DNA of 20,146 nt. Origin: a virus. This document shows, one piece after another, positions 1-17,452 of the stretch (within the stretch, counting starts at the first letter, position 1; the number at the start of each line of letters is the position of its first letter). The notes below the pieces were generated by a model. It had not been told where the DNA came from. It did no database searches and was given only the letters and a program-made list of their open reading frames with translations. Location of the stretch: the IMG/VR virus record IMGVR_UViG_3300042516_004751, positions 1 to 20,146 of that record; one strand, given 5' to 3'. Both the position numbers and the translations under genes were made by a program.

Positions 1-445
1 TTAAAGTAATTGAACCTGAACTGCCTGAAAGTGTTAAAGATAAAGAACCTAAAAATAATGAATCTTTATATCTTGCTCTTTCCATTGGTAAAGCAAAAAA
101 TTCAGATGAAGATACAGTGCCAAATACAAATTTAGCATTTTCATCACCTAATACTAAATCTTGCCATTGACCCCAAATCGTTCCTGTAGGTGATTTACCA
201 TTAACTGCTTGATTGTAATTTAAACTACCACTACCTGCTTCATTACCATAAGCAATTGCAAATTGAATTGATTCAGTAGTTGCAGAATTGAAAGTATTAA
301 TATAATAATTACCTGCAGAACTTGCTACTTGTACAGAAGAAGTAAATATAGAAGATAATGAAGGTGAATTATTTGAGAATAATGTAGATGAAATAGCATC
401 TGTGCTAACTACAAAATCACTTGGGTCTAATCTGTTAAATGACAT
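1..445 (-). CDS. Putative virion structural protein (C-terminus outside window)
   Basis: Translation from an ATG at 445 stays open for 148 codons to the window edge, so the gene is cut at its 3' end. It begins MSFNRLDPSDFVV and is rich in Ser, Gly, Asn and Thr, with alternating small and aromatic residues typical of beta-rich tail or fibre proteins. It has no signal peptide or membrane segment. It is the last gene seen in the tail module, 10 bases after the stop of the preceding structural gene, and lies on the same strand. I recognise the general style of tail-associated proteins of T4-like marine phages but cannot name a T4 counterpart. The role as a virion component is inferred mainly from position. 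Confidence 0.6.
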   Translation of the reverse strand, partial: MSFNRLDPSDFVVSTDAISSTLFSNNSPSLSSIFTSSVQVASSAGNYYINTFNSATTESIQFAIAYGNEAGSGSLNYNQAVNGKSPTGTIWGQWQDLVLGDENAKFVFGTVSSSEFFALPMERARYKDSLFLGSLSLTLSGSSGSITL

Positions 446-455
446 ATTCTATTTT

Positions 456-1118
456 TTATGATACTTTAGTTACTGTTACGGGAATTGTTAAGCGAGCACC
501 TGAATCTCTACCTACTACGGTTAAAGTAGCTTGTAAAATAGTATTTGATCCAAATAATGTATTTACTGTTGTTGCTCTTAAATTAATTGTAGTACCTACA
601 ACTGTTTTAGATACTGAAGTACCTAATGTAGTAGTTTGATTAGCTACGTTTAATGCTGTTACTGATGGAGTATTCACACCTACACCTTCGAATGTTGAAA
701 ATAATCTAACATCAGAAATTGTAGCTGTATATCCAGCTGCTTCAAAAGTATTTCCACCAAAATAATTTAATGTTTGAGGAGTAATTGCTAATGCAGCCCC
801 TTGTTTGATTATAATCGAAGTATAACCTAAATCCAAGATAGGCATTTTAGCTGTACCACGTGGTAAAGTTGTAAGTTTATATTTCATTACCTGTGTTGAT
901 TGAGGAAACGCCTCTAATAAAGGCATGTTATCAATCGCCTGACCGTAATAAGCAGAACCTGAAGGATGGTTTGGATTATACAGAGTATAATCAATTTCAT
1001 CATCTGCTAAAGCAAATTGAGTGATTCTAAACAAACCATCATTTTGAGCTAACAACTGACGGCCTGTATCAGTTAAAATTGCGTCTACTGTTACTACGCT
1101 ATTATTTAAATATCCCAT
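456..1118 (-). CDS. Virion structural protein with C-terminal Ig-like region
   Basis: A 220-residue protein. The N-terminal part (about residues 5-60: NSVVTVDAILTDTGRQLLAQ, then ITQFALADDEIDYTLYN) resembles a conserved structural protein found beside the baseplate genes of T4-like environmental phages; this is recalled by eye, not searched. The C-terminal 75 residues or so alternate Val, Thr and Leu (for example TVVGTTINLRATTVNTL) and look like one Ig-like beta sandwich, a common surface or carbohydrate-contact module in phage tails. There is no signal peptide. The start at 1118 follows an A-rich leader without Shine-Dalgarno, and the recurrent AT motif lies 11 bases upstream. It stands between the giant wedge protein and another structural gene. 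Tail or fibre attachment is inference. Confidence 0.65.
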   Translation of the reverse strand: MGYLNNSVVTVDAILTDTGRQLLAQNDGLFRITQFALADDEIDYTLYNPNHPSGSAYYGQAIDNMPLLEAFPQSTQVMKYKLTTLPRGTAKMPILDLGYTSIIIKQGAALAITPQTLNYFGGNTFEAAGYTATISDVRLFSTFEGVGVNTPSVTALNVANQTTTLGTSVSKTVVGTTINLRATTVNTLFGSNTILQATLTVVGRDSGARLTIPVTVTKVS

Positions 1119-1129
1119 TTTTTGTGTAT

Positions 1130-1143
1130 TTTATTATAAATAT
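1130..1143 (-). promoter_or_regulatory. Recurrent AT motif, copy 1
   Basis: On the minus strand this reads ATATTTATAATAAA. The identical 14-mer occurs at 12554-12567 and 18915-18928, each time in a short gap before a minus-strand gene. Here it precedes the 220-residue structural gene by 11 bases. It may be a late promoter (-10-like TATAAT is embedded) or an mRNA element. Its other strand contains TATAAATA, the T4 late promoter consensus, but in the orientation pointing away from the gene. Confidence 0.45.
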
Positions 1144-1171
1144 GTAAGTTTATTGTTTTTTATTAAATATT

Positions 1172-4100
1172 TTATAAAAATCCTGCGGATTGAGCAATTT
1201 TTAATAAATTATTTTTATATTTTGGATTAAAGTTTTGAGGTACAAGTAATCCAGGTATATTTGTTGATGGAGATGCTTTTAATGTAGGATAATAAGGATT
1301 AAGAGTTACAATAGTTTCATTATATATTCCATTTATATTATTAATATTAGATCCAGTAGTATATGTAGATTGAATACCAGAAAACCATACATTATAAGTA
1401 CCAAAGCTTCCTGATATTGGGGTTTGGCTTCCAGATGTAATATATTGTCTTATTTCAACAGATATTCCGGGGAAATATCCACTTCCACTTTCACCAAAAT
1501 TTATACCATAAAAACTATAAGGAAAGATAGAATTAACTAAAGGTATATTACTTGTTAATGGGTTTGGTATTACACTACCAGATAAAGGAATATTATTTGT
1601 TGGAGATAAATCAATTGTATTACCATTAATATCAATTAAAGTAGTAATATGAACTATATAACCTATATCAGCTATTAAAGGTGAAGAATCACCATATAAT
1701 ACTGATCCACTATTAATATTGTCAAAATAAGCAAACCAGTTACAATAATTTTCAACATTAGCTACTGAACCTATTGTACTTCCAGCTATCATAGGTTGAT
1801 TAACAAATCCTTCATAAATAGAACCTGTAGGAGAAATTGTTTCACAACCAAAATATCTTGGATTAGCAATACGAGCTGTTGTGTAATTAGAAGCAGGAGT
1901 TGTTGATGGGGTTGCACTACCTGTTCCTCTAGAGGCACTAATAATTACATTAGCATTTACTGCTGTAATTGTGTTTGATGAAAAATCAACATCAAAAAAT
2001 TCGGAATTTACTCTTGCAGCGTCAACATTCCCTGCTAATACTAAACAATCTGGTTCTATATAATCTTCAAAAATTGTAAAATTACTAACAGTTAGAGTAC
2101 CAAATAAAGTTTGGGAAATAAAATTTAAAGGAGCTATAATGCCTTGAACTTGTAATTTATTTACTGTTACAGTAGTTGAAGAGGGTATAACCCCAGAATC
2201 ATAAATAACCCTAAGATTATTAGAATTTGAAGCATCAACAATAATAAAATTTGAACTTACAGAAGGGTCAGAGGTATAAGTAAATGTTAAATAATATGTT
2301 TTATCAAAATTAAAATCATAAGATGAAAAATAAAAATTACTAAAACCACTAAGACTTCCTAAAGAAGCAGTTTCATATACTTGTACTATTTCTACATTAC
2401 AATCACTTAATTCACCATTAGTAACTGTTATTACAGATCCACTTAATTCACCATTATAAAATTCTTCTTGTGTTGAATTTACAAATGGAACTAAACCATT
2501 TAAGGATGGTGTTGAACCTGACCAACTTTGAGTAATATTTACAATACCATTTCCTGTAAATTGGGAGGATGTTAAACCAAATAAATTAGGCATTGTTCCA
2601 CCTGTACTACCAGTAATGGTATACATTTGAATAGCTGAGCCAGTAATTAATATATTTTCGGTTTGGTATTGAATATTAGTTGAACCACTTTCAATCCAAG
2701 CTATTGATGAAGTAATATTAGGTTGAGGAACAGGATATTTATTTCTTTCTAAGGTAGTTTGTTTAATTACAATACCTGAAGCTAAATTTGTTCTAGCTGG
2801 AGTAAAATCCTGGATCATTTTAAATAAAGAATTATCAAAATATTTAATAAGTCTTATATAATCCCAAATATTATAGTTACTTGTATATTTTTCAAAATAA
2901 TAATCTCTAATAGCATTTAAGGCAGGGTATGATTCTGCAGATGAAGATACTAATCTTGGATCACCAATATATTCTCCAATATTAAAATATCCTAATTGTC
3001 CAGCAATATCATTATTAATTTCATTTTGAGGAGAAAATGCTACCTCAACATAATCAATATTTGGTGTATAAGATCCACTTACAGCAACACTTTGTTGAAC
3101 TGAAATAAATGGAGATAATACTTGATTAGTTGGTAAATTTGGTTCATTACTTCCACTATAAGGTAATATTTCATTTTGTTGTCTAATTTTATTAGAAACA
3201 CGATTTTTAATACCTGCTGGGAATTGATTTAAATAAAATATTTCGGTATTTGGAATAAATACTGGGGTTGTATTAAATTTAAATGTATTAGTATTTGCAA
3301 ATGATTGAGTAGTAATCCAAGATCCTGTTACTTTAGGATGTATTGAAATTGATGAAGTATATAATTCACCTCCTAAAGTTGCTCTAAATGCTAAAGTATC
3401 TGGGGATGTATTGGTTCCATTAGCATCAATTGAATAAGGATTCATTACATAATCATCAAACTCACTTTGACTTAAAGGAGTTGTGTAAAATCTAAGTTCT
3501 TGAAATGAACCAGAGAATACTTTTCCTAATGTAGAATTAGTACCATTGTAACCTAAAAAAAATTCTTGACTAATTTCCCATGAATCTGAACCATAATAAA
3601 CTGATGAGGATGCTTGAAAACCTATATAATTCCCATCTTCACCATCATAATTTTTATTAGCAGCAATTAAGGTAAATAATGTAGGATCTACTATATCTTT
3701 ATTAATAATTACTGACCACCAACCTTTATTTAAAAATGGTAAGTAAACACTTGCTGTGTTTGTTGGTTGTGTTATAGAAGGATAAAATTCTAATAAAGCA
3801 AACTCATTATAGGGGTTTGGTATTGAACCTGAATATGAACCTGAAGTGTAAGCTGAGCCTGTATATCTTAAAATAAGAGCAGTGTTTTCATTAGTAGTCC
3901 ATATACTTTGAGAATAATATCCGGTATTTGAAGGTATTCCTCTTGTTTGAAATCTAACTTCTACTGCATTTGGGGTATTTGAACTCCAAGCTGAATTTAA
4001 TTGAAATGAAGAGGTAATATAATTAGTTCCTAAGGTATCAAAAGCATAATTATATTGATTAAACCAAAAATCATAATCATTTTCTATAATTTTATTTTGA

Positions 4101-5836
4101 CCACCAAATTCATTTACTTGTAAAATAGTATCGGGAATACCATAAAGAGTAATTAATGCTCTTAAGCCTTCTACTGTACCTTTTTTCTTAAGTAAGTAAG
4201 GTAAATTAGCATATATGCGTTTATATATCTCAGCGTTTATATCTTCGGTCGGTATTAACGAACTTGTGGATGATGCGGTAATATACGTGTTTATATACTC
4301 ATATCCAGAAGGTGTTGGTAATGAGCCAGTTGTATAAGGTAAATTATATAAACTACCTGAAGGTGTTAAACCTAATAAAGCTGAATATAAATCGTTTGTT
4401 GAAAAATTATTTTGGTATATTTTAATACCCATATCTCTTAAGATATCAGCTACTAAATCTTTTGATACACCGTAATTTAAACGGTTATCATTATTATACT
4501 TGTTAGTAATATCTTGAGTATATAAAAATATATTATCAAAATGCTGTCCAATCATCTCAATAAACAATTCATATTGAGCATTTTCAGGATCTTCTAAAAG
4601 ATAAGAAGGAATAGCATTTATTAAAGCATTATTATTTTCAATGTCATATTCTTCAGCTACTAATGATTGAGAAACAAAAAATGCTTGACCAGTTATAGAT
4701 GTTGTAGAAACATTTGTATATGGTGGAGTTGAACCTGTTTTAGGCCAACAAGCTGAACCTGAATTAAAATATAAAAAATATTCATAATTATCAAATCCAG
4801 TAATAATTTCATTTATTTTACTTTGCCAAATAACATTACTTGAAGAAACATAATAATTTGAAGGAGTAGCAGAAGAATAACTAGCACTATAATTGTACTG
4901 TTCAATTAAAGATAATTTATAATAAAAATTTTCTAGTCTAGTTTGAGCAGATGAAAAATGAATAAAATTATCATAATTAGAATAATCTATGTTAATTTCA
5001 ATCCCTGTTTTAGCTAATAAATTATTTAATTGATATCTTAAACTACCAGAACCTTGTGTTGAATCTGTAGTAGCAAGTTGATTTGAATTATTATAGTCTG
5101 TAGAATTATTAATTTGGTTTTTTATACCAATATTAATATTAGGACCTTTTAAATAAATACGATCATTAGTTACATCAAAGGTTTGAGTAATATTAACATT
5201 ATAAGCAACAGGAGTTGCTACTTGAGTTACTACCCAACATTGAGAATTTATGTCAAATTGTTGAGGTAAAGCTTCATATAATTTAACTAAAACTGTTGGA
5301 TTAGTAATACTAGAAGTATCTAATAAAACATTATTAGCAATTATTAATGCATTATCTCCAAAATTTAAATAAAAATCATAATAACTTCCTGTTGCATTTG
5401 CAATATTATTTGTTAGTTCAATTGAAGAAGATATTACTAAAAAATCAGGTATAGAAGTTGTATCTAATCTAACCTCAGTTCTATCTGGGCTGATTTGAGA
5501 TATAAAATAATTGTTATTAGGGTCTGATGCTAATTTATTACTTACAAAGTTATATAAAGTATTATATTGACCTTCAGTAAATCCTTGGGTTGTTAAATCA
5601 ATTTCAGGATAAATTGTTAAAACATTATCTAATAATCTGTAACCATTATAACCAATAACATTACTTGTTAATATAGTTCCATTTAAATCATAAACAAAAT
5701 ATTCAATATGATCTGTAGTTGGGTTGAATAAATTTTCAACCTCTACAGAAGTAATAAGAGAAGTATCATTTACTGAATATTCTTGAAACTCAAATGTAGT
5801 TGGGTTTAATGGGGTTATGTTAATTATTTCGGCCAT
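1172..5836 (-). CDS. Giant baseplate wedge-like protein (gp7-like with lectin-like domain)
   Basis: A 1554-residue protein directly downstream of the wedge genes. Residues of about 412-480 (acidic helical stretch containing MIGQHFDNIFLYTQDIT) and 545-578 (NLPYLLKKKGTVEGLRALI, then YGIPDTI) resemble the segment of T4-like gp7 wedge proteins in which a 'KGT' turn precedes a conserved helix. Residues of about 600-800 look like a concanavalin/LamG-type jelly roll, with WWSVIINKD and a closing FQELRFYTTPLSQSEFDDY. The remaining ~750 residues are Ser/Thr/Gly/Asn-rich with many 'SGS' turns, as in fibre-like beta domains. The gene overlaps the stop of the upstream gene by one base (TAATG). The gp7 assignment rests on motif and gene order; the lectin-like part may bind glycans. 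No signal peptide or membrane segment is seen. Confidence 0.65.
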   Translation of the reverse strand: MAEIINITPLNPTTFEFQEYSVNDTSLITSVEVENLFNPTTDHIEYFVYDLNGTILTSNVIGYNGYRLLDNVLTIYPEIDLTTQGFTEGQYNTLYNFVSNKLASDPNNNYFISQISPDRTEVRLDTTSIPDFLVISSSIELTNNIANATGSYYDFYLNFGDNALIIANNVLLDTSSITNPTVLVKLYEALPQQFDINSQCWVVTQVATPVAYNVNITQTFDVTNDRIYLKGPNINIGIKNQINNSTDYNNSNQLATTDSTQGSGSLRYQLNNLLAKTGIEINIDYSNYDNFIHFSSAQTRLENFYYKLSLIEQYNYSASYSSATPSNYYVSSSNVIWQSKINEIITGFDNYEYFLYFNSGSACWPKTGSTPPYTNVSTTSITGQAFFVSQSLVAEEYDIENNNALINAIPSYLLEDPENAQYELFIEMIGQHFDNIFLYTQDITNKYNNDNRLNYGVSKDLVADILRDMGIKIYQNNFSTNDLYSALLGLTPSGSLYNLPYTTGSLPTPSGYEYINTYITASSTSSLIPTEDINAEIYKRIYANLPYLLKKKGTVEGLRALITLYGIPDTILQVNEFGGQNKIIENDYDFWFNQYNYAFDTLGTNYITSSFQLNSAWSSNTPNAVEVRFQTRGIPSNTGYYSQSIWTTNENTALILRYTGSAYTSGSYSGSIPNPYNEFALLEFYPSITQPTNTASVYLPFLNKGWWSVIINKDIVDPTLFTLIAANKNYDGEDGNYIGFQASSSVYYGSDSWEISQEFFLGYNGTNSTLGKVFSGSFQELRFYTTPLSQSEFDDYVMNPYSIDANGTNTSPDTLAFRATLGGELYTSSISIHPKVTGSWITTQSFANTNTFKFNTTPVFIPNTEIFYLNQFPAGIKNRVSNKIRQQNEILPYSGSNEPNLPTNQVLSPFISVQQSVAVSGSYTPNIDYVEVAFSPQNEINNDIAGQLGYFNIGEYIGDPRLVSSSAESYPALNAIRDYYFEKYTSNYNIWDYIRLIKYFDNSLFKMIQDFTPARTNLASGIVIKQTTLERNKYPVPQPNITSSIAWIESGSTNIQYQTENILITGSAIQMYTITGSTGGTMPNLFGLTSSQFTGNGIVNITQSWSGSTPSLNGLVPFVNSTQEEFYNGELSGSVITVTNGELSDCNVEIVQVYETASLGSLSGFSNFYFSSYDFNFDKTYYLTFTYTSDPSVSSNFIIVDASNSNNLRVIYDSGVIPSSTTVTVNKLQVQGIIAPLNFISQTLFGTLTVSNFTIFEDYIEPDCLVLAGNVDAARVNSEFFDVDFSSNTITAVNANVIISASRGTGSATPSTTPASNYTTARIANPRYFGCETISPTGSIYEGFVNQPMIAGSTIGSVANVENYCNWFAYFDNINSGSVLYGDSSPLIADIGYIVHITTLIDINGNTIDLSPTNNIPLSGSVIPNPLTSNIPLVNSIFPYSFYGINFGESGSGYFPGISVEIRQYITSGSQTPISGSFGTYNVWFSGIQSTYTTGSNINNINGIYNETIVTLNPYYPTLKASPSTNIPGLLVPQNFNPKYKNNLLKIAQSAGFL

Positions 5837-12572: not shown

Positions 12573-13283
12573 CTAAAAATTTGTATATCCGTGTTCTAAA
12601 TAAAAGAAATAGTGTTTTTTAAAAATGTCGTAAAGCTGGTTAGCTATTTTAGTAATTTTAGGTGTTTTGACATCTATAATTTCACGGATATAAATGTAAA
12701 GTGCTTTTTTATTAAAAATATCTAAGTTTTCTCTTTTGCGAAATAATTCTAAAATCGCATCCGCAATTTGAGCGTCATATTCCTTAGGAAAAATTTTATA
12801 AATATTCTGTGTGCAGTGGTCAGTATATAAGTCTATAAACTTTGATAGACGGTCATCATATGTAGAATCTTCAAGTGTATATGAATGTTTTTCATCTTCT
12901 TCAATTGATTCTAAACCTGTAGTATCAATACGTTTTTTATAATTTTTCTGGTTAGATAATATTAAATAGCGTTTAGTAATAGTTCCAAAATATGAATATG
13001 CTTTAGCTCCACGTTCAGGGTTAAATAAATGAATTTTAGATAATAAAAATATTATTACCTCATGTTGTAAATCTTCAATATTATCTACTTCAGTGTAATA
13101 AAATTTAAAAGTATGAATAATGTTTTCGGTAAGTTTAAAAAACGCATAATGAATTTTTTCATTATAAATTCTACTTCTTAACTCAGGGTCAGTTGTATTA
13201 TTATAAAGTACAATAGCATCCTCGGTTGCTTGAGTAAAGTATTGTACTCCCTTTTTTTTCTTTTTGACTACTACCTCTTCCAT
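12573..13283 (-). CDS. Late-transcription sigma factor, gp55-like
   Basis: A 236-residue protein resembling T4 gp55, the phage sigma that directs host RNA polymerase to late promoters. Residues 38-75 (IYNEKIHYAFFKLTENIIHT, ending NIEDLQHEVIIFLL) and 83-115 (KIHLFNPERGAKAYSYFGTI, then TKRYLI) match sigma region 2 as found in gp55-like proteins: a helix with 'DLQHE', the phrase 'F-(D/N)-P-x-RG-x-x-A-(Y/F)-x-YF', and a basic helix (NQKNYKKR). No canonical region 4 helix-turn-helix is evident, as expected for gp55. The Lys-rich N-terminus (VVVKKKKKG) is notable. It overlaps the upstream one-TM protein by TAATG and lies just before the structural block, which it presumably activates. Confidence 0.75.
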   Translation of the reverse strand: MEEVVVKKKKKGVQYFTQATEDAIVLYNNTTDPELRSRIYNEKIHYAFFKLTENIIHTFKFYYTEVDNIEDLQHEVIIFLLSKIHLFNPERGAKAYSYFGTITKRYLILSNQKNYKKRIDTTGLESIEEDEKHSYTLEDSTYDDRLSKFIDLYTDHCTQNIYKIFPKEYDAQIADAILELFRKRENLDIFNKKALYIYIREIIDVKTPKITKIANQLYDIFKKHYFFYLEHGYTNF

Positions 13284-13561
13284 TATTTAATATTTTTAAT
13301 AATGAAGGCATTTAGAATTGTTTGAATACTTTGGATTTGAGTAAAAAAGAATCCTACTTCATCATCAGATTTAAAACTACCTTTTGCATCTACTTCCATC
13401 ATTTTCTTTTCTGATTCTTCAATAATTTCTGAAATTTTATTTAGGTAGGCCATATAACCTGCTAAAATATCCTCCTGTTTTTCATTCTTACGTAGGAGGT
13501 TAAAGGTCGTGAATCCAAGAGTCACGACCAATATAGAAAGAATAATAATTGTTAATATCAT
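13283..13561 (-). CDS. Small single-TM protein upstream of the sigma factor
   Basis: A 92-residue protein with an N-terminal membrane helix (residues 1-22, MILTIIILSILVVTLGFTTF) followed directly by Arg/Lys, giving N-out/C-in topology. A charged helical cytoplasmic part follows, with EESEKKMMEVDAKGSFKSDD and the aromatic pair VGFFFTQIQSI. Comparable small proteins occur beside gp55-like genes in T4-like phages, but no function is known to me. It overlaps the HD gene by four bases (ATGA) and the sigma gene by one (TAATG), so the three are translationally linked. A strong hairpin lies in codons 11-19, see separate entry. Confidence 0.65.
   Translation of the reverse strand: MILTIIILSILVVTLGFTTFNLLRKNEKQEDILAGYMAYLNKISEIIEESEKKMMEVDAKGSFKSDDEVGFFFTQIQSIQTILNAFIIKNIK
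13505..13529 (-). repeat. Perfect 8-bp GC-rich inverted repeat inside a gene
   Basis: GGTCGTGA (13505-13512) and TCACGACC (13522-13529) flank a 9-base spacer, forming one of the most GC-rich perfect hairpins in the window. It lies in codons 11-19 of the one-TM protein and about 220 bases before the sigma gene. No T-run follows, so it is not an obvious terminator. Confidence 0.6.
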
Positions 13562-14346
13562 AAGTTGTCTAATAAGTTCTTTAATCCTTCACTTTTTACG
13601 CTACCTAAGGCTTTTTGTTTAGCAGCAGCGGGTGTTGGATATTTTTTATTTGACTCCAATGTAAATTTCTTCTTTGACTCATCCACGCTATTTCCTGAAA
13701 GTTTTGGAAGCCATTCTCTTTCAAATTCAATTCTTGCAGCCATTAAATCAGCTTGATGAACAATAAATGGAAGTGATGTACGTGGTTTTTGTTCTGGCAT
13801 ATAAGTCATTAAATATTTCTTATTACCTTCATCATATAAACCATCATGAGTCTGAATAGTAATCATTTCATTAAATGAATATTGGATACCATGAGATTGG
13901 AGTAAAAATAAACCACGATCAGGAACAGAGGCAAATGGGACCTTAGTATTAAACATATAGTCTTCACCAAGTTTATTACGTCTCCATTCATCTGTTTGTG
14001 GAATATAAGAATCATTTTCTTCATCTCCCATTTTACCCAGATCATGATTTAATGCCGAAAATACTAATTCTTCTTTAGTGTAAGTAGTTAAATCTGCTCC
14101 CATTTTACCCCATAAACTATGAAGATGTAAAGCACCCGTAATTACACGATTTACATGATCTATATAACCACCAGGAAAAGCATTATGATATTCTTTTTTA
14201 TGAGCGGCAGGCATTAAAATAAGCCTATCTTCATATTTTTTATAAAATTCAATTAATTTTTCTTTCCTTGGAGATTGAATATGATCTTCAATATAACCAA
14301 TAAATTCTACCCAATTTGCTTGGATTTGCTCTGCTGTTAGTTGCAT
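13558..14346 (-). CDS. HD-domain phosphohydrolase
   Basis: A 262-residue protein with the metal-binding residues of the HD superfamily in the right order: H64 (GGYIDHVNRV), H101-D102 (NHDLGK) and D200 (VHQADLMA). A further H167-D168 (TIQTHDGLY) may complete the site. HD proteins hydrolyse phosphomonoesters or phosphodiesters, often of nucleotides or signalling nucleotides. The substrate cannot be read from sequence. The basic C-terminus (residues 215-250, KKKFTLESNKKYPTPAAAKQ) could bind nucleic acid. It starts an overlapping trio with the one-TM and sigma genes. Possible roles are dNTP pool control, degradation of host signal nucleotides, or tRNA/RNA end processing; I have no basis to choose. 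Confidence 0.8.
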   Translation of the reverse strand: MQLTAEQIQANWVEFIGYIEDHIQSPRKEKLIEFYKKYEDRLILMPAAHKKEYHNAFPGGYIDHVNRVITGALHLHSLWGKMGADLTTYTKEELVFSALNHDLGKMGDEENDSYIPQTDEWRRNKLGEDYMFNTKVPFASVPDRGLFLLQSHGIQYSFNEMITIQTHDGLYDEGNKKYLMTYMPEQKPRTSLPFIVHQADLMAARIEFEREWLPKLSGNSVDESKKKFTLESNKKYPTPAAAKQKALGSVKSEGLKNLLDNL

Positions 14347-15212: not shown

Positions 15213-15803
15213 TTATTTAATATCACTTGATTCGATAAGAGTATAAGTAAATGATTTACCATGTATAGCAGCTGCTTTTCTAGCTAATATCATAAATGAC
15301 TCAAAATCAGCAGATTTTTTAAATACTTGACATCCTTCAGACCAGTTTTCTACGTAAGTAGAATCAGCACCTGCTTTATGAATATTAATACCAAAGATAC
15401 CTTCTTGGATTTTAGACTCATCATAAGTCATATCCTTATTAGCGTCACGATATACTTTAACTGGTTTTTGTTGTTTTAAAGCTTCGTATTTTCCTTGGTG
15501 TAAACCTAGGGTGTGTGAACCTCTGTATTGACCTTCAACTAAACGAGCAACACCTGCAGCGTTGTGAAATTCTTTAACACCTTTAGTTCCTGGATCAGTA
15601 GTACAAGACCACTGATGAAATTTCCATACACCACCTTCTTTGTAAGATACAGTCATTGTATCATCAAATACGTTAGTTACTTTGTTACCTGTTGCAGAGT
15701 TTCTAACTCCTACAATGTTTAAGTCGAAGTCTTTTGCACCTTCAAACCAAACATACCCTTTGCCTTTAACGGCACCTTCAATTTGTTCTCTTGTGTAAGC
15801 CAT
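15213..15803 (-). CDS. L,D-transpeptidase-like (YkuD-type) lysis enzyme / endolysin
   Basis: A 196-residue protein without signal peptide. Residues 138-160 contain H142 (FGINIHKAG) and S155-E-G-C158 (ENWSEGCQVF), corresponding to the H...S-x-G-C catalytic signature of YkuD-fold enzymes, with Cys158 as likely nucleophile. The preceding region (VWKFHQWSCTTDPG, then GQYRGSHTLGLHQGKYEAL) is beta-rich as in that fold. YkuD enzymes join or cut peptide crosslinks of peptidoglycan; in a phage cassette directly behind a holin-like gene, a lytic role is the natural reading. It follows the holin-like gene by 7 bases. The lack of a signal peptide means release would depend on the holin. Classic muramidase or amidase motifs are absent. 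The fold call is by motif, not by search. Confidence 0.68.
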   Translation of the reverse strand: MAYTREQIEGAVKGKGYVWFEGAKDFDLNIVGVRNSATGNKVTNVFDDTMTVSYKEGGVWKFHQWSCTTDPGTKGVKEFHNAAGVARLVEGQYRGSHTLGLHQGKYEALKQQKPVKVYRDANKDMTYDESKIQEGIFGINIHKAGADSTYVENWSEGCQVFKKSADFESFMILARKAAAIHGKSFTYTLIESSDIK

Positions 15804-15810
15804 AATTTAA

Positions 15811-16077
15811 TTAATTTTCTACGTTATCTTTATCTTCTTCGTGTTTGTCTTTTTTGTTCATCCATTTATCAACAGAAGCGATACCAAATGAACCTAAAAT
15901 GATTACCATAAATCCATCAAAGATGAATTCGTTAATTACCAAAGCTGTACCCATGTAACCTGTAACTAGGTCTACAATAAGGGCAACTACTAGCATAAAA
16001 AATGCAATGAATCCTACAACGGCTTTTTCGTTGATTGTGTTGTTGTCATCGAATAATGACTTGAAAAATTGTTTCAT
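15811..16077 (-). CDS. Holin-like two-TM protein
   Basis: An 88-residue protein with a short charged N-terminus, TM1 about 18-39 (KAVVGFIAFFMLVVALIVDLV), a short loop, TM2 about 50-68 (FDGFMVIILGSFGIASVD) and a strongly charged tail (KWMNKKDKHEEDKDNVEN). This is the profile of a class II holin, with both termini inside. Holins set lysis time by forming membrane lesions that free the lytic enzyme. It is 8 bases after the PAS protein gene and 7 bases before the lytic enzyme gene, so all three form one operon. It could instead be an antiholin or spanin-like partner. Confidence 0.68.
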   Translation of the reverse strand: MKQFFKSLFDDNNTINEKAVVGFIAFFMLVVALIVDLVTGYMGTALVINEFIFDGFMVIILGSFGIASVDKWMNKKDKHEEDKDNVEN

Positions 16078-16085
16078 GTTATTAT

Positions 16086-17207
16086 TTATTTATTTGTTTT
16101 TATTTTATCCCCATCTTGGGTAGCATATTTAATACCCATAATTGTACCAACTATTGAAAAGGCATTTGTAAGTAATACACTAAACATATTACTCCATGTA
16201 GATCCTATTATTTGAGTATCTGTACCATAAAAAATAGCAAATGAATACATGGTAGTTGTAATAAACCCTACACTCATGATTACAAACAATGCAGATTTTA
16301 CAATCACTTTGATTAACTCGTTTTGGCTCTTTTTTAGTGTAGCATCTAAATCTTCAACAGCCGCATTTCTTTCTATTTCAAGAGCATTTTTTAGTTCTTT
16401 AGAATTATGTAATTCAATCTGTAAATTTTCCGTAAGTTCTTTAATTGCTTTTTTATTTATAGTAGCTTCTGTAACATCACTAGCAATTTTAATTATACTG
16501 GTAACATTTCCTTTACTATCAAATATAGGATTATAACTTGCTTGTAAATATACAGTAGAACCATCTACTTTTTTTCTTTCAAATATTCCATTAAATATTT
16601 TACCGGCTTTTAAATCCTGCCAAAATTTTAAATATTCATCAGATTTTGAATATTCATAAGATATAAAAATACTATGATGTTTACCTATAACTTGATTTTT
16701 TTCATTTGCTTTATATCCCATTGTTTCTAAAAAAATAGAATTAGCATCTAAAATAAAACCATTAACATCGAATCTTATAGTTGCTGAGCTTCTGTTTACA
16801 GCATCCATTTGATTTTTACTATTGACTATTTCAGTAATATCAGTAGCAATTTTCATTATTTTAGTAAGCGTACCTGATTCATCAAAAATAGGATTGTAGG
16901 TTGCTTGTAAATTTATAAGACTACCGTCTTTTTTTCTTCTTTCAAACTCTCCTTTATAATACTTCCCACTTCTTAGAATATCCCAAAACTTTTCATATTC
17001 TAAAGATCTCGCATAATCGTCACATACAAATATACTATGATGTTTACCTATAAGTTCTTTAGGGTCATCTTCTTCAAAACCCATTGCTTTTAAAAAGATA
17101 TCATTTACTCCTAAAATAACCCCAGTTAAATCAAAGTAAATAATAGCATTACTGCGATTAATTGCTTCAAGTCTACTTAATAGCTCTTCTTTAGATAAAT
17201 GTTTCAT
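16086..17207 (-). CDS. Double-PAS sensor with coiled coil and C-terminal membrane hairpin
   Basis: I take the ATG at 17207 (373 residues); the in-frame TTG at 17222 adds five unlikely codons. Two tandem PAS domains (about 15-127 and 135-247) share IGKHHSIF at 53-60 and 174-181 and YNPIFD at 104-109 and 225-230, and both end in a 'ATDIT/ASDVT' cap, so they are a duplication. They match the PAS type of chemoreceptors such as BdlA and aerotaxis-like sensors, which often bind heme or flavin; the ligand here is unknown. A coiled coil (250-297) leads to TM1 (about 301-327) and TM2 (about 339-362) and a short charged tail. There is no kinase, MCP, GGDEF or output domain. It opens an operon with the holin-like and lytic enzyme genes. 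A cytoplasmic sensor that controls a membrane pore is my inference. Confidence 0.75.
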   Translation of the reverse strand: MKHLSKEELLSRLEAINRSNAIIYFDLTGVILGVNDIFLKAMGFEEDDPKELIGKHHSIFVCDDYARSLEYEKFWDILRSGKYYKGEFERRKKDGSLINLQATYNPIFDESGTLTKIMKIATDITEIVNSKNQMDAVNRSSATIRFDVNGFILDANSIFLETMGYKANEKNQVIGKHHSIFISYEYSKSDEYLKFWQDLKAGKIFNGIFERKKVDGSTVYLQASYNPIFDSKGNVTSIIKIASDVTEATINKKAIKELTENLQIELHNSKELKNALEIERNAAVEDLDATLKKSQNELIKVIVKSALFVIMSVGFITTTMYSFAIFYGTDTQIIGSTWSNMFSVLLTNAFSIVGTIMGIKYATQDGDKIKTNK

Positions 17208-17320: not shown

Positions 17321-17346
17321 AAAAAATTTTTCTGTCGGGAAGACAG
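17321..17346 (-). terminator. Terminator-like hairpin at the end of the tRNA cluster
   Basis: On the minus strand CTGTC-TTCCC-GACAG is followed by AAAAATTTTTT. The first arm is the 3' side of the T-stem of the last tRNA, so the hairpin competes with that tRNA's fold. It is plausible as the intrinsic terminator separating the tRNA cluster from the lysis operon. Confidence 0.5.
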
Positions 17347-17408
17347 GACTCGAACCTGTGACCCACGCATTATGAGTGCGGCGCTCTAACCAACTGAGCT
17401 AAAGGTCC
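17335..17408 (-). tRNA. tRNA-Met/Ile2-like (CAU) with non-pairing acceptor stem
   Basis: D-arm (GCTC/GAGC), anticodon loop CTCATAA (CAU) and T-arm (ACAGG TTCGAGT CCTGT) are well formed. The acceptor 5' strand GGACCTT should be matched by AAGGTCC, but the 3' side reads CTTCCCG, which pairs at only one position. The 3' strand instead belongs to a terminator-like hairpin. It is probably a tRNA pseudogene or a truncated tRNA; the 5' half resembles tRNA-Ile2 or elongator Met of Bacteroidota. Confidence 0.6.
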
Positions 17409-17411
17409 AAA

Positions 17412-17452
17412 TGTAGGATATCGCTTAACCTACGATGATTGCGCTTATCATC
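17412..17452 (-). other. Tandem hairpins with a shared loop between two tRNAs
   Basis: Two abutting inverted repeats: GTAGG/CCTAC (17413-17417, 17429-17433) and GATGAT/ATCATC (17434-17439, 17447-17452). On the minus strand both loops contain AAGCG (AAGCGCA in the second). They fill the spacer between tRNA-Glu and the tRNA-like gene and no tRNA can be folded from them. Confidence 0.4.

Follow-up and report, generated by a model that had tools for sequence, protein, structure and literature searches.

We conclude, at a probability of roughly 0.55, that the 373-aa protein encoded beside the lysis genes of this virus is a signal transducer that belongs to the phage and is devoted to lysis, namely, a flavin-based redox or energy sensor that is anchored in the membrane and tunes lysis timing. 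The joining of PAS sensor domains to a membrane hairpin in a gene next to the lysis genes, here called PAS-TM, suggests that the phages carrying it sense the condition of their host in timing their burst.

Organization of the lysis operon

The window, i.e., the whole stretch of DNA analyzed, is an AT-rich IMG/VR virus record of 20,146 bases, and its run of structural genes includes recognized T4-like baseplate wedge genes. The three minus-strand genes lie where the initial annotation had placed them, separated by the gaps of 8 and 7 bases that it reported (Table 1).

Table 1. Features of the lysis operon and of the PAS-TM protein in the window
Feature	Position	Strand	Description and evidence
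PAS-TM gene	16086..17207	-	ATG start, 373 aa; first in lysis operon; ORF, PAS_3/PAS_9, AlphaFold model, 57 distinct homologs
PAS1, residues ~20-124	16836..17150	-	Pfam, model, alignment to MmoS/NifL/Aer; predicted flavin residues N35, H57, W75
PAS2, residues ~142-244	16476..16784	-	Pfam, model, alignment to MmoS/NifL/Aer; predicted flavin residues N156, H178, W196
Signaling helix/coil, residues ~246-299	16311..16472	-	Continuous model helix 246-327
TM1, residues ~300-327	16227..16310	-	Hydropathy and model
TM2 block TQIIGSTWSNMFSVLLTNAFSIVGTIMGIKYAT, residues 331-363	16119..16217	-	Sequence identity in sampled family; dN/dS 0.03
88-aa two-TM gene	15811..16077	-	Two long predicted helices; lytic-enzyme neighbor with or without PAS gene
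Predicted YkuD-type lytic enzyme (endolysin) gene, 196 aa	15213..15803	-	phrog_3000, phrog_33083; relative fused to PG_binding_1

The 196-aa protein belongs to phrog_3000 (1e-38) and matches the endolysin family phrog_33083 at 1e-10, and one of its relatives carries a fused peptidoglycan-binding domain, PF01471 (PG_binding_1). An H...S-E-G-C motif can be read directly in its sequence. It matched nothing in Pfam (E of ≤0.1, with the YkuD model included), NCBIfam, or the PDB sequences, and no signal peptide was seen. On these sequence features, we identify it as a predicted YkuD-type endolysin.

The 88-aa protein has the traits of a holin: it is small, with two TM helices, a charged C terminus, and an endolysin as neighbor. 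Its model consists of a short N-terminal helix and two long helices (residues 17 to 41 and 50 to 86). Pfam, PHROGs, and NCBIfam returned no curated holin family and only subthreshold matches to other families; the one to TssN was discarded, being under the Pfam cutoff. In Flavobacterium phage immuto, a homolog adjoins a chitinase and an annotated holin. Homologs occur in 10 of the 12 PAS contigs tested, at times 8 to 17 kb away, and the 88-aa and PAS-TM proteins usually co-occur in one genome. An adjacent 88-aa gene is missing in about one-third of the loci, and a Phage_holin_4_1 protein is also present in some PAS cassettes. We consider the 88-aa protein the best holin candidate of the cassette.

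Architecture of the PAS-TM protein

Two PAS domains, a coil, two TM helices, and no enzymatic output were what the initial annotation described, and Pfam, NCBIfam, and the AlphaFold model bear this out. Pfam recognizes PAS_3 (4e-24) and PAS_9 (2e-21), each in two stretches, and the NCBIfam sensory_box model matches at 3e-30; PAS1 and PAS2 can be aligned from end to end. The AlphaFold model (mean pLDDT of 82) has a single helix from residue 246 to 327, comprising the coil and TM1, then a short turn and a second helix, TM2, from 332 to 367. Given a short hairpin made up of two helices, both termini of the modeled protein should be cytoplasmic. Scans with Pfam and NCBIfam found no kinase, MCP, or other output domain, and there was no match to a DNA-binding domain. 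Identity as a sensor histidine kinase was rejected because HisKA and HATPase are absent in these scans, and identity as a methyl-accepting chemoreceptor or BdlA was rejected because the MCP signaling domain is absent.

Among solved structures, the sequence is nearest to that of MmoS, which has FAD-PAS domains in tandem, and to the domains of this type in NifL and Aer; MmoS (3ewk) tops both the sequence-profile (2e-11) and the structure (1e-15) comparisons of the PAS part. According to a survey of PAS domains, the determinants of FAD binding are a Trp in helix F (F-alpha), a His, and an Asn (PMC10468136). Alignments with Aer, NifL, and MmoS place the equivalents of the flavin pocket at one Asn, one His, and one Trp in each domain (Table 1). 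Across 144 PAS units, the His and Trp are present without exception and at constant spacing, and the Asn is present in at least 137. For the double-PAS receptors BdlA and McpS, a published prediction assigns the PAS domains to the FAD type (PMC8694187). The PAS domains of the 373-aa protein probably bind FAD, with the caveat that flavin-pocket residues can be retained without flavin. Together, the PAS fold and the conserved predicted flavin residues favor the earlier reading of the protein as a cytoplasmic sensor of redox or energy state.

The membrane hairpin

Residues 331 to 360, in TM2, are identical across 57 distinct proteins, which were retrieved with seeds lying outside the TM2 block and represent a sample skewed to close relatives (73% identity or more); synonymous codons there vary as they do elsewhere. 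The invariance may relax in more distant relatives. Pooled dN/dS values are 0.12 to 0.14 for the PAS domains, 0.21 for TM1, 0.03 for the TM2 region, and 0.02 for the N terminus, and they indicate strong purifying selection. TM2 is the most constrained long element of the protein, as would be expected if it made specific contacts within the membrane. It is rich in Ser, Thr, Asn, and Gly. The idea of an amphipathic TM2 was rejected, as there was no excess over shuffled sequences.

The hairpin had been described as holin-like and as having the same layout as the 88-aa protein. The common layout stands, but a profile comparison of the two shows no homology (probability of 0.4%, E of 0.14), which leaves a holin-like origin by descent unsupported. 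The PAS-TM protein has the TM helices and the endolysin-side location expected of a holin, and it matched no known holin family in Pfam or PHROGs. A weak, uninformative match to phrog_1544 was set aside as a candidate for the ancestor of the tail. Among the best 80 loci of a tail search seeded inside TM2, the tail occurred neither alone nor on other sensor domains.

Gene neighborhoods of relatives

The loci come from a search of IMG/VR in which the query was the PAS protein alone, and they were therefore unselected for lysis genes; the top 80 of the 153 relatives that it yielded were retained. The neighbor clusters identified by Pfam are GH19 chitinase/lysozyme, GH24 phage lysozyme, peptidase M15, and Phage_holin_4_1, and a further cluster is a YkuD-type enzyme with a peptidoglycan-binding domain. 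In a gene-order tally that is partly circular, as its models derive from the neighborhoods themselves, a lytic enzyme occurs within three genes on either side, on the same strand, in 68 of 75 distinct loci with full context over that range; the count rises to 73 of 75 when an 88-aa homolog or holin is also accepted, and no lytic enzyme in the 75 lies further than four genes from the PAS gene.

Owing to this circularity, the analysis was repeated with Pfam models (PF00182, PF00959, and PF08291) on the whole of 38 PAS contigs longer than 40 kb. A GH19, GH24, or M15 gene was found in 32 of the 38, and in 31 of these 32 it lies within 2 kb of the PAS gene and shares its strand, where position alone would predict 1.9 (nominal probability of 2e-38, which overstates the case because many contigs are related and the counts are not independent). 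The proximity of lytic enzymes is not in doubt. Placement in a lysis cassette, as originally proposed, thus held in a search for relatives located away from lysis genes.

In 102 of 106 loci, the gene following the PAS gene shares its strand (gap of 60 bases or less in 88), and it encodes a GH19 or M15 enzyme in 52 loci. A fixed order of PAS, holin, and YkuD genes, for which a survey had been suggested, is not conserved: four kinds of enzyme (GH19, M15, GH24, and YkuD-type) alternate beside the PAS gene, and the 88-aa gene may be upstream, downstream, or elsewhere. Genes for small, lipoprotein-like products that have a TM helix at the C terminus occur near the PAS gene in L037 (1045-1521, cluster c16), L228 (2814-3290), and L230 (4876-5352), and these look like unimolecular spanins. 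A phage lysozyme domain in G362 (C1:17047-17442) lies outside the lysis cassette, within an open frame of 1,061 aa, and is probably a tail-associated lysozyme.

Distribution, origin, and sister phages

A search of IMG/VR with the hairpin only recovered at least 592 stretches that carry the PAS-TM family, which is absent from a collection of isolate phages (50,697 records). A search for prophage carriers found the tail in none of 349 genomes of Flavobacterium (the genus of L237) with the same model that finds all 38 viral contigs, an absence that fits, but does not establish, strictly lytic phages. Based on the immuto homolog and on base composition, we tentatively assign the carrier phages to Flavobacterium-like hosts.

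The PAS units of the phages group in a single clade (support of 0.97), and among the cellular sequences sampled, the one closest to this clade is a PAS unit from a Fulvivirga (Bacteroidota) protein; their cellular relatives are hybrid histidine kinases with PAS arrays and MCPs. The number of PAS domains is one or two, with single-PAS versions of about 250 aa. It is likely that a cellular PAS unit was captured and fused to the hairpin and was duplicated later; the duplication is placed late because the single-PAS versions also occur.

Six sister phages (L082, L085 to L088, and L131) have no PAS gene and retain the 88-aa and YkuD-type genes. L082, L086 to L088, and L131 are 86 to 88% identical to the window from the 88-aa gene downstream, and L085 is 93 to 96% identical on either side of the missing PAS gene, with tRNA-Met followed after about 90 bases by the 88-aa gene and no PAS gene between. 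As the 88-aa and lytic genes persist in these phages, we regard the PAS gene as an accessory, add-on regulator and not a required part, and a modulator is therefore favored over a sole pore former in this group. L085 also has genes for a 98-aa TM-coil protein and a 126-aa protein between its 88-aa and YkuD-type genes (783-1461), which gives the impression of a second slot for insertions in the cassette.

Proposed mechanism and alternatives

In the mechanism that we propose, cytoplasmic PAS domains, one or two in number and probably with FAD, would sense the redox or energy state of the host through a flavin whose oxidation state may shift with host respiration. The signal would run along the continuous helix to the two-helix hairpin, and the near-invariant TM2 would influence the lysis step from within the membrane; most likely, it would enter or block assemblies of holins, e.g., those of the 88-aa protein. 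The PAS-TM protein would thereby tune the time of endolysin release. We infer FAD binding, the nature of the signal (redox or energy state), an effect on the holin, and the direction of control. For the last, an antiholin-like brake released by a change in redox state is slightly favored, because sisters without the PAS gene keep the other lysis genes.

It is also conceivable, if unlikely, that the PAS-TM protein is itself the holin, with TM2 building or lining the lesion, the PAS domains setting the trigger, and the 88-aa protein serving as an accessory or antiholin. This explanation stands close to the preferred one. In its favor, many phages that have no 88-aa gene next to the PAS gene carry the latter immediately 5' of the endolysin, where a holin gene usually lies; a GH19 or M15 enzyme is the next gene in the 52 loci noted above; and TM2 combines extreme conservation with its Ser/Thr/Asn/Gly-rich composition. 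However, sister phages presumably lyse without the protein, most PAS contigs tested have an 88-aa homolog and some cassettes a Phage_holin_4_1 protein, TM2 is no more amphipathic than its shuffles, and 370 aa is large for a holin.

More doubtful is a late sensor that merely shares the lysis transcript and serves another role, such as superinfection exclusion or interference with host PAS kinases. A conserved gene of a late operon could have another late function, and an effect on host signaling is possible since the cellular relatives are sensor kinases and chemoreceptors; yet the PAS gene adjoins four kinds of lytic enzyme in otherwise dissimilar phages and is almost never elsewhere. PAS domains often dimerize, and both this and the variable PAS count (one or two) would be compatible with PAS domains that are mere dimerization modules of a nonsensing, structural membrane scaffold. 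We consider such a scaffold very improbable, as the cofactor-pocket residues, which dimerization alone does not need, are kept in every unit checked. Returning to the sensor that acts on lysis, we give about even odds to the broader statement, taken jointly, that PAS-TM proteins are a widespread class, so far only from metagenomic phages, in which a flavin sensor is fused to a hairpin that gates, or is, the holin and the respiratory state of the host sets the moment of lysis.

Relation to known systems and significance

Lysis timing governs phage yield, and to our knowledge, the systems in which sensory input into it has been documented are few (T4-type lysis inhibition, N4, ICP1, and VP882). 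The T4 protein RIII is a cytoplasmic component of lysis inhibition; no T4 homolog of the PAS-TM protein was found. In T4, holin T and antiholin RI set the time of lysis (PMC11413866). The two systems share a sensory input to a membrane lysis protein that sets lysis time, but T4 senses superinfection in the periplasm, whereas in the PAS-TM protein the sensor is a PAS module in the cytoplasm, joined to a hairpin of its own. VqmA of vibriophage VP882 is also a phage-encoded PAS protein tied to the lysis decision (PMC8284805); however, VqmA acts as a transcription factor that binds DNA and serves a quorum signal, and the PAS-TM protein is predicted to be membrane bound.

With Aer, MmoS, NifL, and receptors of the BdlA/McpS type, the PAS-TM protein shares the PAS fold, the order of the flavin residues, and a GxxH motif. 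It differs from them in lacking an MCP or kinase output, in place of which it has a hairpin from a phage lysis operon. LysF1a of mycobacteriophages Girr and NBJ has 88 aa and two TMDs in an N-in, C-in arrangement (PMC13056207); the likeness to the 88-aa protein drawn here is one of size, topology, and cassette position, and its host group is different. The lysis region of immuto contains the 88-aa homolog, the chitinase, and the annotated holin but no PAS gene.

Sensory control of lysis is thus already known (T4, N4, and VP882), and it is the variant with a cytoplasmic redox PAS fused to a hairpin that appears to be undescribed. Neither a PAS-holin nor a lysis-cassette PAS protein of such form was present in the literature covered, which includes few subscription-journal papers, and within that scope, the remark of the initial annotation that it knew of no described phage with a PAS-holin of this form still stands. 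Loss of membrane energy has long been known to trigger holins, and a redox sensor beside holins would, if the proposal is correct, provide a genetic basis for the coupling of energy to lysis. Abundant environmental phages would then tie lysis to host energy metabolism via a captured redox sensor, a link from host physiology to phage release that lends itself to direct testing, as well as a portable sensor-membrane module.

Other features of the locus

A putative promoter element upstream, ATATGTATCA, which was sought as common to the loci, showed no excess over chance in the window and was weak across loci. The 236-aa protein encoded near the lysis cassette (12573-13283) matches sigma-70 region 2 weakly (1e-4) and a late sigma factor PHROG and is a possible phage late sigma factor. 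The 262-aa protein encoded at 13558-14346 (phrog_5889) has an HD-like motif, HDLGK, is kept beside the cassette in relatives, and is possibly a phosphohydrolase. ARAGORN called six tRNAs in the window. Immediately upstream of the lysis operon is a tRNA-Met-like sequence (17343-17416) that ARAGORN did not call, although a tRNA-Met is called at the corresponding site of L085, L004, and L005; the acceptor stem of the window sequence may have decayed. In L005, a related phage fragment, the region upstream of the PAS lysis cassette packs 23 tRNA genes (287-5509) into about 5 kb.
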